Source: a virus
IMG/VR virus record: IMGVR_UViG_3300023210_000005
Coordinates: 1-31,125 of that record
Length of the DNA stretch: 31,125 bases
Direction: 5' to 3' (one strand)
This document shows positions 5,281-27,845 of the stretch, piece after piece. The translations under genes were made by a program, and so were the position numbers. How positions within the stretch are numbered: position 1 is the first letter of the stretch; each line of letters begins with the position of its first letter. The notes under the pieces were generated by a model. The model saw only the letters and a program-made list of their open reading frames with translations. It was not told the origin of the DNA and did not search any database.

Positions 5281-5306
5281 GTTATTAAATTTTTTGTTTA
5301 TATTTG
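5281..5306 (+). promoter_or_regulatory. Promoter-like element, GTTATTAAATTT class (copy A)
   Basis: Begins with GTTATTAAATTT followed by TTTG, matching copies at 9713 and 16505. A perfect -7 element TATATTTG lies at 5299-5306, 33 bp before the ATG at 5339. Unlike the other two copies, the -7 element is 18 rather than 35 bases from the start of the motif, so the geometry differs and a TTG -33 element is not seen at the usual distance. It follows a terminator, as expected of a unit boundary. Confidence 0.5.
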
Positions 5307-6527: not shown

Positions 6528-7373
6528 ATGACAGAAAAACAGAACGAACACAGAATGTTAATGCAATTTATAGAGCAAGATTGTTTTATAAATTCTAAGG
6601 AAAAAGTAGACTATCCACCTGTAGCATTATCTTATGGTGAGAAAGTAGTAAAATCAAATAAAATAGATGGTGATTTAATTGTACCAATAGCATTAGGAAC
6701 ATACGGAAATCTATCAGTAGTAACTGCACCACCTAAAACAAAGAAAACATTTTTTATATCATTATTGGCATCTTGCTATTTAAGTGATAAAAATCAATTT
6801 GGTGGTGATATAAAAGGACATAAAGGTAATGATGGACAATTAATTCATATAGATACAGAACAAGGCGCTTGGCATTGCCAAAAAGTGTTTGAAAGGGTAC
6901 ACAAAATGGACTCTAATATTAATTCAGAAATTTATCATACCTTTGGATTGAGGTCAATAGACTATAAAATGAGAATTGAATTTATAGATTACTATTTAAA
7001 AGAAAGAATTAAAACACCATCTTTATTAATTATAGATGGTATTGCAGATTTATGTTCTGATGCTAACAATATTTCTGAAAGTAATCATCTAGTTCAGAAA
7101 TTAATGGAATGGTCATCAATTTACAAATGCCACATAATAAACGTTATACATCAAAACTTTGGTAGTTCAAAACTAGGTACAGGTCATCTAGGTAGTTTCT
7201 TAGAAAAGAAAGCAGAAACGGTAATACAATTAGAAGCTAATACGGTTAATAAAGATTGGGTTACAGTAAAGTGTGGAAGATCTAGAGGTTATTCTTTTGA
7301 TACTTTTAGCTTTGAAGTTAATGATTTTGGATTACCTCAAATAGTAGAAAATTTATATGACCCATTAAAATAA
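6528..7373 (+). CDS. RecA-superfamily ATPase (RepA/AAA_25-like helicase)
   Basis: 281 residues. Features in order: a Walker A-like loop TAPPKTKKTFF (about 66-76), IHIDTEQG (about 107-113), the Walker B strand SLLIIDG (165-171), and a sensor-like strand IINVIHQN (203-210) followed by GTGHLGSFLEKKAE. This is the layout of RepA-type hexameric helicases and KaiC-like ATPases found in phage replication modules. The Walker A is unusual: a Lys (K72) replaces the Gly normally before the catalytic Lys. It lies between ssb and a sigma-like gene. Likely the replicative helicase or a recombination ATPase; no separate DNA polymerase or primase is visible in the genome. Confidence 0.75.
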   Translation: MTEKQNEHRMLMQFIEQDCFINSKEKVDYPPVALSYGEKVVKSNKIDGDLIVPIALGTYGNLSVVTAPPKTKKTFFISLLASCYLSDKNQFGGDIKGHKGNDGQLIHIDTEQGAWHCQKVFERVHKMDSNINSEIYHTFGLRSIDYKMRIEFIDYYLKERIKTPSLLIIDGIADLCSDANNISESNHLVQKLMEWSSIYKCHIINVIHQNFGSSKLGTGHLGSFLEKKAETVIQLEANTVNKDWVTVKCGRSRGYSFDTFSFEVNDFGLPQIVENLYDPLK

Positions 7374-7858
7374 TGTCTGAAAAAGAAGTTATATTATTAC
7401 TAGCTAAAAAGCATAAGACTTGGATTAATGTTGTTAATTCATTTGGTTGTAATAAAACGATAGCTGAGGACATTGTTCAGGAAATGTATATTAAAATAAT
7501 ACCAAAAATAGAAGCAGGTTTAGACATTATTTATTATGATAATGACATAAACTACTACTACATTTATAAAGTTCTAAAAACATTATACATAGATTTAAAA
7601 CGTAAGGGTAAAAATATTACAATGCTTAATATAGAAGATGCCAATTATTCTAAATTAGATTGTGATGTAGATTATGATGAAGCCTATGATAAAATAAAAT
7701 CTGAATTAAATAAGATGTTTTGGTATGACAGAAAAGTTTTTGAAATAATTAACGAGGGTGAAAGCATAGCAGACTTTTCTAGAAATTCATTTATTGAATA
7801 TTATACCCTTTACAATACATACAGAAAAGTAAAAGATAAATTAAAGAAATTAATATGA
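7373..7858 (+). CDS. ECF-like sigma-70 family factor
   Basis: 161 residues; the ATG overlaps the TAA of the ATPase gene. Region 2 is visible as CNKTIAEDIVQEMYIKI (residues 26-42), close to the AEDIVQEVF core of ECF sigma factors, with YYIYKVLKTLYIDLKRKGK (62-80) as the 2.3/2.4 part. An acidic linker follows. The C-terminal 50 residues (FWYDRKVFEIINEGESIADFS, then a final helix RKVKDKLKKL) fit the region 4 helix-turn-helix. This two-domain layout and size are those of ECF sigma factors. It is the best candidate to read the RYAAAA-N14-CGTTATA motif found before the structural genes. That link is inference. Confidence 0.7.
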   Translation: MSEKEVILLLAKKHKTWINVVNSFGCNKTIAEDIVQEMYIKIIPKIEAGLDIIYYDNDINYYYIYKVLKTLYIDLKRKGKNITMLNIEDANYSKLDCDVDYDEAYDKIKSELNKMFWYDRKVFEIINEGESIADFSRNSFIEYYTLYNTYRKVKDKLKKLI

Positions 7859-8325
7859 CAATCAAATTAACAGACAAAGAATTAGATTGGTGCAAAGATT
7901 TAGCAATGAAGCGATCAGGATCAATGAATCACGCAGATACAAAAAATAGTTTTAATTTCTTTAAAAGCAAACCTGCTTGGTGGAGGCATTACATAGGTGT
8001 TCTTGGAGAATATGCTTATTCTAAACATACAGGTGAAAAGGTAGATGTTCTAACTATTGGAAAAGGAGATTCAGGAAGTGATTTTAAATATGGTGTTGAT
8101 GTAAAATCTTCTAATTCTAAGAATAGACCACCTTTATTATTATTTGCAAATCAATTTAAAAGGAAGACAGCAAAGCATTATGTACTTGCTTGGGTGCAGG
8201 AAAACTCTGTTGAATTGATAGGTCATATAAAAAGAAAAAAAGTAATAGAATTAAAAGAAATAAAAGATTTTGGCTTCGGAGAAACGTATGTAATTGATAA
8301 TAAACATTTAACAAAATTTAAATGA
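7855..8325 (+). CDS. PD-(D/E)XK-like nuclease
   Basis: 156 residues, overlapping its neighbours at both ends by ATGA-type junctions. A GVLGEYAYSKHTGE helix (Glu52), then KGDSGSDFKYGVDVKSS (70-86) supply the E...GD..D...VDVKxS arrangement typical of PD-(D/E)XK enzymes, including restriction-like endonucleases and phage resolvases. Probable active-site residues are Asp72 or Asp76, Asp82 and Lys84. It directly precedes a cytosine methyltransferase, which invites comparison with a restriction-modification pair, but it may equally be a recombination or host-DNA-degrading nuclease. Confidence 0.65.
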   Translation: MTIKLTDKELDWCKDLAMKRSGSMNHADTKNSFNFFKSKPAWWRHYIGVLGEYAYSKHTGEKVDVLTIGKGDSGSDFKYGVDVKSSNSKNRPPLLLFANQFKRKTAKHYVLAWVQENSVELIGHIKRKKVIELKEIKDFGFGETYVIDNKHLTKFK

Positions 8326-9712: not shown

Positions 9713-9755
9713 GTTATTAAATTTTCTGTTTATAAGTATATTTATATTATATTTA
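9713..9755 (+). promoter_or_regulatory. Promoter-like element, GTTATTAAATTT class (copy B)
   Basis: GTTATTAAATTT at 9713-9724, CTG at 9726-9728 in the -33 position, a 19-nt spacer, then TATATTTA at 9748-9755, one base off the TAnnTTTG -7 consensus. The geometry is identical to copy C at 16505. The start codon at 9785 lies 29 nt downstream, preceded by the AAAACAGAACA leader. Confidence 0.65.
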
Positions 9756-9771
9756 TACTTTATTAATTATT

Positions 9772-9784
9772 AAAACAGAACAAA
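9772..9784 (+). promoter_or_regulatory. AAAACAGAACA translation leader (copy 1)
   Basis: AAAACAGAAC directly precedes the ATG at 9785. The same word sits at the same place before ATGs at 9979, 16569 and 16786. It has no Shine-Dalgarno core. It supports the chosen starts and may be a phage-specific initiation enhancer. Confidence 0.6.
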
Positions 9785-9967
9785 ATGGCAACAGAAACAA
9801 AAAAATCAAATTTAGCAAAAGCATTTGCAAGAAAAAATGATTTAAAATTAAACCTAACTACAGATGAGTTTATCGCATTGAATGATATACTCTGTGATCT
9901 AGCAAACCAAGAATTTGAAAAGGGTTTAAATAAGGGTTTAGAAATAGGTAATATGTTTAACAAATAA
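9785..9967 (+). CDS. Small hypothetical protein
   Basis: 60 residues, first gene of a unit with promoter copy B and the ACAGAACA leader. Lys-rich N-terminus, then a probable amphipathic helix (TTDEFIALNDILCDLANQEF) and a Gly/Lys-containing C-terminus. No metal-binding or catalytic motif. A regulator or host-takeover peptide is possible from its position, but nothing in the sequence shows it. Confidence 0.65.
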   Translation: MATETKKSNLAKAFARKNDLKLNLTTDEFIALNDILCDLANQEFEKGLNKGLEIGNMFNK

Positions 9968-9978
9968 AAACAGAACAG
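9966..9978 (+). promoter_or_regulatory. AAAACAGAACA translation leader (copy 2)
   Basis: AAAAACAGAACAG fills the gap between the TAA ending at 9967 and the ATG at 9979. Same word as before 9785, 16569 and 16786. Confidence 0.6.
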
Positions 9979-13134: not shown

Positions 13135-13198
13135 TAAGCACAATTACTTACAACAGTTGTACAAGGCACGTTTTAATGTGCTTTGTGCTTAGTTGTAA
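13135..13198. repeat. Nested inverted-repeat element (possible structured RNA/host-type intergenic repeat)
   Basis: Several inverted repeats are stacked: TACAAC-A-GTTGTA (13149-13161, perfect palindrome around one base); ACAAGGCAC (13161-13169) with GTGCTTTGT (13178-13186), 9 bp with one G:U, 8-nt loop; TAAGCACA (13135-13142) with TGTGCTTA (13184-13191); and TTACAAC (13148-13154) with GTTGTAA (13192-13198). These pairings compete, as in an attenuator or folded RNA. No long T tract follows, so it is not a classic terminator. It separates early genes from the packaging unit. Confidence 0.6.
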
Positions 13199-13221
13199 AA
13201 AGTAATTTTAAAAACGTTATA
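13195..13221 (+). promoter_or_regulatory. Candidate late promoter, RYAAAA-N14-CGTTATA (copy 1)
   Basis: GTAAAA at 13195-13200, 14 nt, then CGTTATA at 13215-13221. The ATG at 13238 is 16 nt downstream, more than in the other four copies. It lies at the border between the early and the packaging genes. Confidence 0.5.
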
Positions 13222-13427: not shown

Positions 13428-13952
13428 ATGATCAAAGCTAAAATACAAAAGGTAAGCATATCATCTATAAAAGAAAATGATGCTAACCCTAGATTCATAA
13501 ACAAGCATAAGTTTCAGAAACTTGTTAATAGTGTAAAGGAATTTCCTGAGATGTTATCACTTAGACCAATAGTGGTTGATAAGGATAATATTATCTTAGG
13601 TGGAAATATGCGTTATAAGGCTTGTAAGGAAATAGGATTAAAAGAAGTCTATATTATACAGGCAGCAGATTTAGATGATAAACAAGCACAGGAATTTATT
13701 ATTAAAGATAATGTAGGTTTTGGGGAATGGGATTGGGATGTTTTAGCTAATGATTGGGATGTAAAAGAATTAGAAGATTGGGGTTTAGATGGTTTTCCAT
13801 TTGAAAAAGAAGAAAAAGAATTAAATGATATATCAGATACTATTGAAAGTTCTTATAGGATAGAAGTAGAAATAGAAAATGAAGAAGAACAAGAAAAATT
13901 ATATAATGAATTAATAGAAAAAGGATACATATGCCGAATTTTGACATTGTAA
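13428..13952 (+). CDS. ParB-like nuclease-domain protein
   Basis: 174 residues. The ParB/Srx N-terminal fold is clear: VSISSIKENDANPR (9-22), LRPIVVDKDNIILGGNMRYKAC (45-66, described in part), then GLKEVYII. In this family GG.MRY is the CTP/ATP-binding or catalytic box. It is followed by KDNVGFGEWDWDVL and an acidic C-terminal segment with EEQEKLYNELIEKGYICRI. There is no DNA-binding HTH or dimerization domain as in chromosomal ParB. In phages such genes precede terminases or DNA methylases. Overlaps the ABC-GNAT gene by 22 bases, so the two products probably work together. Confidence 0.8.
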   Translation: MIKAKIQKVSISSIKENDANPRFINKHKFQKLVNSVKEFPEMLSLRPIVVDKDNIILGGNMRYKACKEIGLKEVYIIQAADLDDKQAQEFIIKDNVGFGEWDWDVLANDWDVKELEDWGLDGFPFEKEEKELNDISDTIESSYRIEVEIENEEEQEKLYNELIEKGYICRILTL

Positions 13953-15001
13953 AAACAAATAAAACAGATTTAACATTTAGGGTTTCATCTGTTATAGGTA
14001 AATTCGATTTACAATCTAATGAATCAACAGAAAGATTTACAGGATCAATAGATTTATATAATGAATGGAAGATTGGTTTAATTGTAGGTAAAAGTGGAAG
14101 TGGTAAAACAACAATAGCAAAACAACTATTTGAAGACTTTTATATTACTAAATTTGAATATACAGATAAATCAATTTTAGATGATATGCCAAGTTATTGT
14201 TCTGTATCAGATATAACAAATGCCTTTAATTCTGTTGGTTTTTCTAGCCCACCTAGTTGGTTAAAACCTTATTCAGTATTATCTAATGGAGAAAAAATGA
14301 GATGTGATTTAGCTAGGGCTATATTAGAAAAAAATGAAATGATTGTTTTCGATGAATTTACAAGTGTTGTAGATAGAAATGTAGCAAAAATAGGAAGTTT
14401 TGCAATTCAAAAAGCAATAAGGAAAAGTGATAAAAAATTTATAGCAGTTGGTTGTCATTATGATGTTGAAGATTGGTTATTACCTGATTGGGTTTTTAAT
14501 ACAGATACTATGACCTTTCAAACATTTGAAGGGCAAAAAAAAAATAGACCAAAAATTGATTTCAAAATCTATGAAGCATCAGATAAACAAATTTGGAAAA
14601 TGTTTTCTAAACACCACTATTTAAGTCATACTCATAATAATGCAGCTAAAGTTTTTATAGCAACTATAAATGATGAAATAGCAGGATTTTTAAGTGTATT
14701 ACATTTTCCTCATCCAAAAGTAAAAAATATGAAAAAAGTTCATAGATTGGTTATATTACCTGATTATCAAGGTGCAGGTTTTGGTATCAAATTTTTAAAT
14801 GAAATTGGTAAAATATATAAAAAAGAAAATTTTAGATATAATATAGTTACATCAGCACCTAGTTTAATTTATGCTTTAAAAAAATCAAATAAATGGATAA
14901 CAACACGATTTTCTAGAACTACCTCTCAATCAAAAGAAACTACGGTTGGAAATATGCAAACATCACACAACAGAATAACAGCATCATTTGAAATGAAATA
15001 A
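13931..15001 (+). CDS. ABC-type ATPase fused to GNAT acyltransferase
   Basis: 356 residues with two domains. The N-terminal ABC ATPase has Walker A GKSGSGKT (53-60), signature loop LSNGEKMRCDLARA (117-130), Walker B MIVFDE (137-142) with a D-loop at SVVD, and switch His176 in VGCHYDV. There are no membrane segments or a transporter partner, so it is a soluble ABC ATPase. The C-terminal part (~210-356) carries a GNAT acetyl-CoA-binding core RLVILPDYQGAGFGIKFL (272-289), preceded by IAGFLSVLHFP and followed by NIVTSAPSLIYAL. Phage Mu Mom is a GNAT-fold DNA-modifying enzyme, so base modification is a possible function; protein or tRNA acylation are alternatives. Sits between ParB-like and TerS genes. 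Confidence 0.8.
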   Translation: MPNFDIVKTNKTDLTFRVSSVIGKFDLQSNESTERFTGSIDLYNEWKIGLIVGKSGSGKTTIAKQLFEDFYITKFEYTDKSILDDMPSYCSVSDITNAFNSVGFSSPPSWLKPYSVLSNGEKMRCDLARAILEKNEMIVFDEFTSVVDRNVAKIGSFAIQKAIRKSDKKFIAVGCHYDVEDWLLPDWVFNTDTMTFQTFEGQKKNRPKIDFKIYEASDKQIWKMFSKHHYLSHTHNNAAKVFIATINDEIAGFLSVLHFPHPKVKNMKKVHRLVILPDYQGAGFGIKFLNEIGKIYKKENFRYNIVTSAPSLIYALKKSNKWITTRFSRTTSQSKETTVGNMQTSHNRITASFEMK

Positions 15002-16504: not shown

Positions 16505-16547
16505 GTTATTAAATTTATTGTTTATTAAATAAATAGTATTATATTTG
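16505..16547 (+). promoter_or_regulatory. Promoter-like element, GTTATTAAATTT class (copy C)
   Basis: GTTATTAAATTT at 16505-16516, TTG at 16518-16520, 19-nt spacer, and a perfect TATATTTG at 16540-16547. This matches the Bacteroidota vegetative promoter (TTG-N~19-TAnnTTTG) in sequence and spacing. It drives the small-gene unit 16569-17001. Confidence 0.75.
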
Positions 16548-16772: not shown

Positions 16773-16785
16773 AAAAACAGAACAG
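16773..16785 (+). promoter_or_regulatory. AAAACAGAACA translation leader (copy 4)
   Basis: AAAAACAGAACAG-type sequence fills the gap between the previous stop and ATG 16786. It supports the tiny ORF that follows. Confidence 0.55.
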
Positions 16786-16872
16786 ATGAAAAAATTACAA
16801 ACATTAGTATTGATTTTAGCACCAAGCTATTTCGTAGGTAGATTATTAATAGGTTTAATTTTTAATATTTAA
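16786..16872 (+). CDS. Tiny membrane peptide
   Basis: 28 residues, mostly hydrophobic (KKLQTLVLILAPSYFVGRLL, then IGLIFNI), consistent with one membrane-spanning helix with a basic N-terminus. The ACAGAACA leader before its ATG is the best evidence that it is translated. Could be a lysis regulator, superinfection-exclusion peptide or membrane-active toxin; none can be shown. Confidence 0.55.
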   Translation: MKKLQTLVLILAPSYFVGRLLIGLIFNI

Positions 16873-17047: not shown

Positions 17048-17079
17048 AAAGGGTAGCTAGAAATGGCTACCTTTTTTTT
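17048..17079 (+). terminator. Rho-independent terminator
   Basis: GGTAGC (17052-17057) pairs with GCTACC (17066-17071) around an 8-nt loop; three A residues upstream can extend pairing into the 8-T tract that follows. It closes the 16569-17001 unit immediately before a candidate late promoter. Confidence 0.75.
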
Positions 17080-17094
17080 ATTACCTTTATTCAA

Positions 17095-17121
17095 ATAAAA
17101 AATTAAATTAAATACGTTATA
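17095..17121 (+). promoter_or_regulatory. Candidate late promoter, RYAAAA-N14-CGTTATA (copy 2)
   Basis: ATAAAA at 17095-17100, 14 nt, CGTTATA at 17115-17121, and only 5 nt to ATG 17127. The 17 bases AAATTAAATACGTTATA are identical to those before 24354. Follows a terminator and heads the tail module. Confidence 0.65.
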
Positions 17122-24321: not shown

Positions 24322-24348
24322 GCAAAATTTAAAATTAAATACGTTATA
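24322..24348 (+). promoter_or_regulatory. Candidate late promoter, RYAAAA-N14-CGTTATA (copy 3)
   Basis: GCAAAA at 24322-24327, 14 nt, CGTTATA at 24342-24348, then 5 nt to ATG 24354. Shares 17 identical bases with copy 2 and the GCAAAA box and spacing with copy 4. Heads the head module. Confidence 0.65.
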
Positions 24349-25124: not shown

Positions 25125-25151
25125 GCAAAAATTAAATTAATAATCGTTATA
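25125..25151 (+). promoter_or_regulatory. Candidate late promoter, RYAAAA-N14-CGTTATA (copy 4)
   Basis: GCAAAA at 25125-25130, 14 nt, CGTTATA at 25145-25151, 8 nt to ATG 25160. Precedes scaffold and major capsid genes, the most highly needed products. Confidence 0.65.
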
Positions 25152-26804: not shown

Positions 26805-26841
26805 AGGGTAGGTAGAATTTATCTACTTGCCCTTTTTTTTT
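26805..26841 (+). terminator. Rho-independent terminator after capsid gene
   Basis: 12-bp stem AGGGTAGGTAGA (26805-26816) with TCTACTTGCCCT (26822-26833), two G:U pairs, 5-nt loop, then a T tract. A partial terminator here could keep the capsid transcript level above that of distal genes. Confidence 0.85.
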
Positions 26842-27411: not shown

Positions 27412-27441
27412 AAGCATCCTTTATTGGGTGCTTTTTTTTTT
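27412..27441 (+). terminator. Rho-independent terminator
   Basis: AAGCATCC (27412-27419) pairs with GGGTGCTT (27426-27433), one G:U, 6-nt loop, followed by a run of T residues. A candidate late promoter follows at once. Confidence 0.85.
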
Positions 27442-27455
27442 GCTTTAGTAATTTT

Positions 27456-27482
27456 ACAAATTAGATGTTTTTTTTCGTTATA
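27456..27482 (+). promoter_or_regulatory. Candidate late promoter, RYAAAA-N14-CGTTATA (copy 5)
   Basis: ACAAAT at 27456-27461, 14 nt, CGTTATA at 27476-27482, 6 nt to ATG 27489. The upstream box is the weakest of the five. It follows a terminator and heads the portal/connector/fibre unit. Confidence 0.55.
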
Positions 27483-27488
27483 TTAATA

Positions 27489-27845
27489 ATGATTATACTA
27501 ACGACATCAGCAACTGCTCAATCTCTATCAGTAATACCAAGAAGCTATGTATCTACTTTTACGTTATCAATAAGGGATGATAGTACTAATGTAGAAAAAA
27601 CTTATAGTATTACTAATGCAGTAAATTCAGGTAATTACTTAAATTTTAATAATATCTTTGATCCTATATTAGTTGAGAATCATTTTTACGATTTAAAACT
27701 TATAAGCAACGGAGAAGTTATTTTTAAAGATAGAATTTTCTGTACAGACCAAGATATTGACCAATTAAATAACGATTACTATGATTTAAATTCAAATGAA
27801 TATTTAGATTATAATGGTTATGATAATACTTATTTAGTAAGATGA
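27489..27845 (+). CDS. Small structural protein upstream of portal
   Basis: 118 residues from ATG 27489. The frame extends to ATG 27465, which would add a hydrophobic stretch (MFFFVILI) resembling a signal peptide, but that stretch is encoded by the T tract and CGTTATA motif, so it is probably not translated. From 27489 the protein starts MIILTTSATAQSLSVIPR, as I recall for small beta-sandwich proteins beside portals in these phages, and ends with FKDRIFCTDQDIDQLNNDYY. Likely head-associated; function unknown. Stop overlaps the portal ATG. Confidence 0.6.
   Translation: MIILTTSATAQSLSVIPRSYVSTFTLSIRDDSTNVEKTYSITNAVNSGNYLNFNNIFDPILVENHFYDLKLISNGEVIFKDRIFCTDQDIDQLNNDYYDLNSNEYLDYNGYDNTYLVR

Follow-up and report, generated by a model that had tools for sequence, protein, structure and literature searches.

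The closest precedent for the locus described here is the sigma factor of phiEco32 (gp36) and of phage 7-11, phiEco32-like podophages of Enterobacteria that encode an ECF-like sigma factor of their own, use the host sigma factor for early genes and the phage sigma factor for middle and late genes (PMC4331800). Binding to host polymerase has been shown for the phiEco32 sigma factor (as cited in a passage of PMC7881722), which uses the motif tAATGTATAtA, 6-8 nt upstream of the start point (PMC4281155). The promoters of phiEco32 and 7-11 are reported to be of the extended -10 type with no recognisable -35 (PMC5333181). In addition, phiEco32 makes an inhibitor of host sigma70 polymerase, a counterpart of which was not recognised in the window. 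In phages of Bacteroidota, transcription control is almost undescribed in the searchable literature, although such phages are common in marine viromes, and no description of a late sigma regulon was found there (most subscription papers lie outside this literature).

The DNA analysed here (the window) comprises 31,125 bases with 30% G+C and is a virus record of IMG/VR. Direct reading of the sequence shows that its end repeats its beginning, and the window is therefore probably a complete permuted genome. The phage is marine, its host is a Bacteroidota-type bacterium, and its structural genes are related by sequence to those of Nonlabens phage P12024S (the portal proteins share 37% identity over 96%). 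Judged by sequence and position, the window holds what phiEco32 and 7-11 hold, a phage ECF-like sigma factor with dedicated late promoters, with another promoter motif and another type of host. We consider it highly likely that the ORF at 7373-7858 encodes an ECF-type sigma factor that serves as a late-transcription switch acting at five promoters. The gene is located in a replication/recombination block and adjoins an AAA_25 ATPase gene. Its end is overlapped by ORF 7855-8325, which by eye has the look of a PD-(D/E)XK-type nuclease (GSDFKYGVDVKSS) and whose sole match is an unnamed PHROG. Elsewhere, 13931-15001 fuses an ABC-type ATPase with a GNAT acetyltransferase and adjoins ParB and terminase; a similar ATPase-acetyltransferase protein is included in the P12024S annotation.

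7373..7858, + strand: predicted ECF-type sigma factor gene (161 aa; sigma2 at about residues 1-84, sigma4 at about residues 97-161)

The earlier note had placed a sigma-like protein of ECF size at this ORF with AEDIVQEMY as its region 2 core, and the gene indeed encodes 161 aa on the + strand, with AEDIVQEMY at residues 31-39. The layout is that of the ECF class (about 160-200 aa), with only regions 2 and 4 and without regions 1.1 or 3. Searched alone, the window protein matched profile models weakly (Pfam Sigma70_r2, E 0.026, 14.7 bits vs a cut-off of 24; TIGR02937, 13.5 bits vs a curated cut-off of 42.9; the SigZ model, E 3.5e-4). Among 29 aligned family members, 25 matched Pfam Sigma70_r2 (best E 4.4e-6) and all 29 matched the SigZ and PG0214 ECF models (E up to 1; best E 3.4e-7 and 1.3e-6, respectively), some ECF models covering members over nearly their full length. 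The invariant residues of the family lie in region 2.1-2.2 (EDIVQEMY), in region 2.3-2.4 (NYYYIFKxLxxxxxDLKRK) and in the C-terminal helix-turn-helix; region 4 was detected through structure and full-length ECF models, not through a Pfam r4 model. Relatives of the protein are encoded by at least 580 IMG/VR stretches, and none was found in 84,980 prokaryote species genomes. A tblastn search of 50,697 phage records with the window protein gave no match; the P12024S homologue was missed because it is too divergent, and was reached through the portal protein.

A sequence profile searched against PDB chains returned no sigma factor at E<1, so that structure was needed. The AlphaFold2 model of the window protein (pLDDT 85) has helices at 3-79 and 101-160 joined by a low-confidence linker; the placement of the two domains relative to each other is uncertain (pTM 0.48, usual for two domains on a loose linker). 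In Foldseek, the model matched ECF sigma factors in transcription complexes (E 7.5e-5). The N-terminal part superposed on region 2 of SigR (1h3l; 2.4 A over 72 residues) and also on sigmaE region 2, and the C-terminal helix-turn-helix on the -35 domain of SigC (2o8x; 1.7 A over 60) and on sigmaE region 4 bound to -35 DNA (2h27; 2.7 A over 65). The sigma fold that the earlier note had supposed was therefore predicted, with matches to solved ECF sigma factors in both domains, and by homology and predicted fold the product of ORF 7373-7858 is an ECF-type sigma factor. It shares the two-domain fold with the bacterial ECF sigma factors (sigmaE, SigW, SigZ, the PG0214/GFO_1088 family), but unlike these it is phage-borne, with a very small dedicated regulon, no anti-sigma partner was seen for it, and no close relative was found in prokaryote genomes.

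CGTTATA occurs seven times in the window, always on the + strand (1.86 expected; none of 100 shuffles reached seven), and at five of the sites it forms the -10 of a promoter with two parts in fixed arrangement, YAAA-N15-CGTTATA (0.05 expected; 0 of 100 shuffles), sitting 5-16 nt before start codons. Each of the five heads a structural or packaging gene block:

13196..13221, + strand: predicted sigma-dependent promoter (-35 TAAA at 13196, -10 CGTTATA at 13215-13221), heading the ParB / ABC-GNAT / TerS / TerL genes (first ORF 13238)
17096..17121, + strand: predicted sigma-dependent promoter of the tail/morphogenesis operon, with 5 nt between its -10 (17115-17121) and ATG 17127 of the first gene
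24323..24348, + strand: predicted sigma-dependent promoter, with 5 nt between its -10 (24342-24348) and ATG 24354
25126..25151, + strand: predicted sigma-dependent promoter, with 8 nt between its -10 (25145-25151) and ATG 25160 of a scaffold-like gene that is followed by the major capsid protein gene
27457..27482, + strand: predicted sigma-dependent promoter of the portal operon, with 6 nt between its -10 (27476-27482) and ATG 27489, the likely true start
27489..27845, + strand: gene, its start corrected from 27465 in the listed ORF, a position within the promoter
13159..13188, + strand: intrinsic-terminator-like hairpin just upstream of promoter 13196
17048..17075, + strand: intrinsic-terminator-like hairpin just upstream of promoter 17096
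27412..27433, + strand: intrinsic-terminator-like hairpin just upstream of promoter 27457

Four of the promoters lie between genes and the fifth (-10 at 27476) just inside the called ORF 27465, which the mechanical caller began too early, because its homologues start at the ATG after the motif. The hairpins upstream of three of the five end 8-24 bp before the promoter. Since the targets are structural and packaging operons, the earlier description of the motif as standing before late genes was right, 'late' being understood by gene function. The in-gene CGTTATA sites at 7142 and 13611 were dropped as promoters for want of a -35 half, as was autoregulation of the sigma gene by a promoter of its own. 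A further strong terminator-like hairpin, in the gap that follows the major capsid gene (26805-26833), has no CGTTATA promoter behind it and may limit read-through.

The promoter recurs in related contigs. When k-mers upstream of genes were ranked de novo, the motif not being named beforehand, CGTTATA was the top 7-mer (52 regions, 3.1 expected), and alignment on it revealed an unsought element, A-Y-AAA, ending 15 bp upstream, with the AAA almost invariant. Among 81 non-redundant sites (flanks less than 65% alike), AAA stood at exactly 15 bp in 90%, compared with 9% in shuffled flanks; in this -35 at fixed spacing the window-type promoters differ from those of phiEco32 and 7-11. ECF promoters have an AA-containing -35, a CGT-type -10 and rigid spacing, and the pattern found here is of this kind, an AA-containing -35 (AYAAA) and a CGT-type -10 separated by a constant N15. 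We infer that AYAAA-N15-CGTTATA is read by the sigma protein of 7373-7858.

The predicted regulon is constant across phages and consists of five late operons (late by function): 325 of 343 de-duplicated sites precede homologues of just five window genes (17127, n=80; 25160, n=76; 24354, n=69; 27465, n=68; ParB, n=32). The distance to the ATG, mostly 5-9 nt, hardly varies within a target (for 17127 it is 5 nt at 78 of the 80 sites). The first base of the -35 pattern, at -19, depends on the target as well: the 17127 tail operon has T there in 73 of its 80 promoters, and the 24354, 25160 and 27465 operons have C in 211 of their 213 (the Fisher test on this base ignores the relatedness of the phages and is descriptive only). 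In the window it is T at 13196 and 17096, and C at 24323, 25126 and 27457. Such a target-dependent base may tune relative promoter strength.

Sigma gene and promoter were found together in both directions. Of the two outcomes that the earlier note would have counted as refuting, a missing sigma fold and a gene and motif that part company in related phages, neither came about. Of the contigs of at least 20 kb that were found by the promoter alone, 21 of 23 held the sigma family (0 of 8 control contigs), and all 12 sigma-bearing contigs over 26 kb held 2-5 promoters (0-1 for the reversed pattern), which in each contig were all on one strand. One exception, G016, is a truncated near-copy of G011 that has the same four promoters and stops short of the region where G011 has its sigma gene; the other, the 20 kb piece G038, has three promoters of this kind and one more in which the -10 reads CGTTAAA. 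Four contigs with a major capsid protein gene and no sigma match (G046, G047, G049 and G051) were not counted, being fragments of 18-26 kb from genomes of about 31 kb. The co-occurrence is in part shared ancestry.

A second lineage, with a changed promoter, is provided by the Nonlabens (Persicivirga) phages P12024S and P12024L, which resemble the window in late promoter layout and in having a related portal and sigma factor. P12024S gp33, deposited as 'containing Sigma-70 region 2', matched the window sigma family in profile-profile comparison (E 2e-13, about 26% identity), and the P12024 sigma clade also matched ECF models; its AlphaFold model was poor (pLDDT 62), with ECF sigma factors as the best PDB matches, though only at E 0.01. 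The P12024S sigma factor differs from that of the window in a shorter segment between regions 2.2 and 2.3, and the phage in its 35.7 kb genome and other gene order. Its late operons are preceded by AAACAAA-N14-CGTTAATA, 4-5 nt before the ATG. A scan with this variant returned P12024-type contigs; all three contigs of at least 20 kb with several variant sites held the P12024-type sigma factor, and the contigs of 38 kb and 10.6 kb, which have one site each, lacked it. In a third sigma lineage (G009, G039), CGTTATA promoters are kept at corresponding places, so that two of the three lineages compared keep the same -10. Sigma factor and predicted promoter diverge together between P12024S and the window. 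Together with the co-occurrence, the second lineage supports the link between factor and motif that the earlier note had drawn. In one 40 kb contig (L096 / G048), the capsid is 94% identical to that of the window, the sigma factor belongs to a much more distant branch (E 2.7e-49), and CGTTATA promoters are still present; an exchange of sigma and capsid genes between lineages may lie behind this.

Outside viruses, the promoter left few traces. At least 119 IMG/VR stretches matched the pattern, compared with 8 when the -10 letters were permuted, and 121 of 130 sites in the viral set were directly upstream of an ORF, whereas 257 Gb of prokaryote sequence in ~85,000 genomes gave 45 matches, one per listed contig and in unrelated phyla, 3 of them upstream of an ORF. 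With matches so few and scattered, no host regulon of the YAAA-N15-CGTTATA type is visible. These counts weigh against the reading in which CGTTATA is a host stress promoter taken over by the phage and recognised by a host ECF sigma factor, the sigma-like phage protein having some other function. Bacteroidota do carry many ECF sigma factors (PMC7366714), most with unknown motifs, but in P12024S-type phages the promoter and the phage sigma factor have both changed, and we regard a host factor as very unlikely. Similarly improbable is that the protein is not a true sigma factor but a sigma-like activator or appropriator working with the host primary sigma factor. Short phage sigma-like activators are known, and the window protein is divergent and below curated cut-offs; nevertheless it has both sigma2 and sigma4, and at the late promoters the -35/-10 pair is complete, ECF-like and constant in spacing, with no host -7 TAnnTTTG element seen at the listed promoter sites. 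That CGTTATA is a translation-level element (a start-codon context in the mRNA) and not a promoter we discount almost entirely: it does lie mostly 5-9 nt before start codons, and Bacteroidota rarely use Shine-Dalgarno sites, yet a -35 half stands exactly 15 bp upstream, and the motif marks operon heads, not every gene, in three of five cases right after terminator-like hairpins.

If the protein is a true phage sigma factor, as we hold, early genes including the sigma gene itself would be transcribed by host polymerase with the host primary sigma factor. The phage sigma factor would then bind host core RNA polymerase and direct it to the five YAAA-N15-CGTTATA(T) promoters heading the packaging (ParB/TerS/TerL), tail, 24354, scaffold-capsid and portal operons, with the sigma4 domain predicted to read the -35 AYAAA, and the sigma2 domain to melt and read CGTTATA. 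As the phage has a sigma gene and its genome, like those of hundreds of relatives, has a matching phage-only promoter close before the start codons of the late operons (capsid, tail and packaging), host polymerase is very probably redirected to the late genes by this one-gene switch. With a start 6-8 nt after the -10 (the phiEco32 distance), transcription would begin at the ATG or within a few bases of it, and the late mRNAs would be almost without leaders, which is a new prediction; in B. thetaiotaomicron only ~3.7% of 5' leaders are shorter than 10 nt (PMC7366714). More broadly, and with more reserve, we lean towards a large undescribed group of marine Bacteroidota phages with such a one-gene late switch, consisting of an ECF sigma factor and about five private promoters, with starts on or next to the start codon, (nearly) leaderless late mRNAs and a target-specific -35 base (T for tail, C for capsid) by which output ratios could be set. 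In this case the sequence is enough to read off a sigma factor together with its complete predicted regulon, repeated over many genomes, and the cultured representative P12024S allows the prediction to be tested at once. For Bacteroidota the phages offer orthogonal sigma/promoter pairs, a way to map the residues that set -10 and -35 with two natural specificity variants, and a test of leaderless mRNA translation in this phylum.

Candidates for the early promoters were also seen. The primary-sigma promoter of Bacteroidota is TTTG / TAnnTTTG (PMC7366714), and TTG-N19-TATATTTG is of this -33/-7 type (cf. PMC7366714). An element present in three exact copies in the window (0.15 expected) stands upstream of the block that holds the sigma gene and, at 9713 and 16505, at the head of other blocks:

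5281..5301, + strand: candidate early (host-type) promoter element GTTATTAAATTTNYTGTTTAT, upstream of the block holding the sigma gene
9713..9733, + strand: candidate early promoter element GTTATTAAATTTNYTGTTTAT, second copy
16505..16525, + strand: candidate early promoter element GTTATTAAATTTNYTGTTTAT, third copy, overlapping a TTG-N19-TATATTTG match

These copies are probably host-type early promoters; a scan for the host-type -33/-7 pattern gave few, mixed sites, and they therefore stay candidates. One other short element was noticed: AAAACAGAACA, at 9773-9784, 9967-9978 and 16773-16786, is enriched right before early-gene start codons (ACAGAAC in 25 regions, 3.4 expected).
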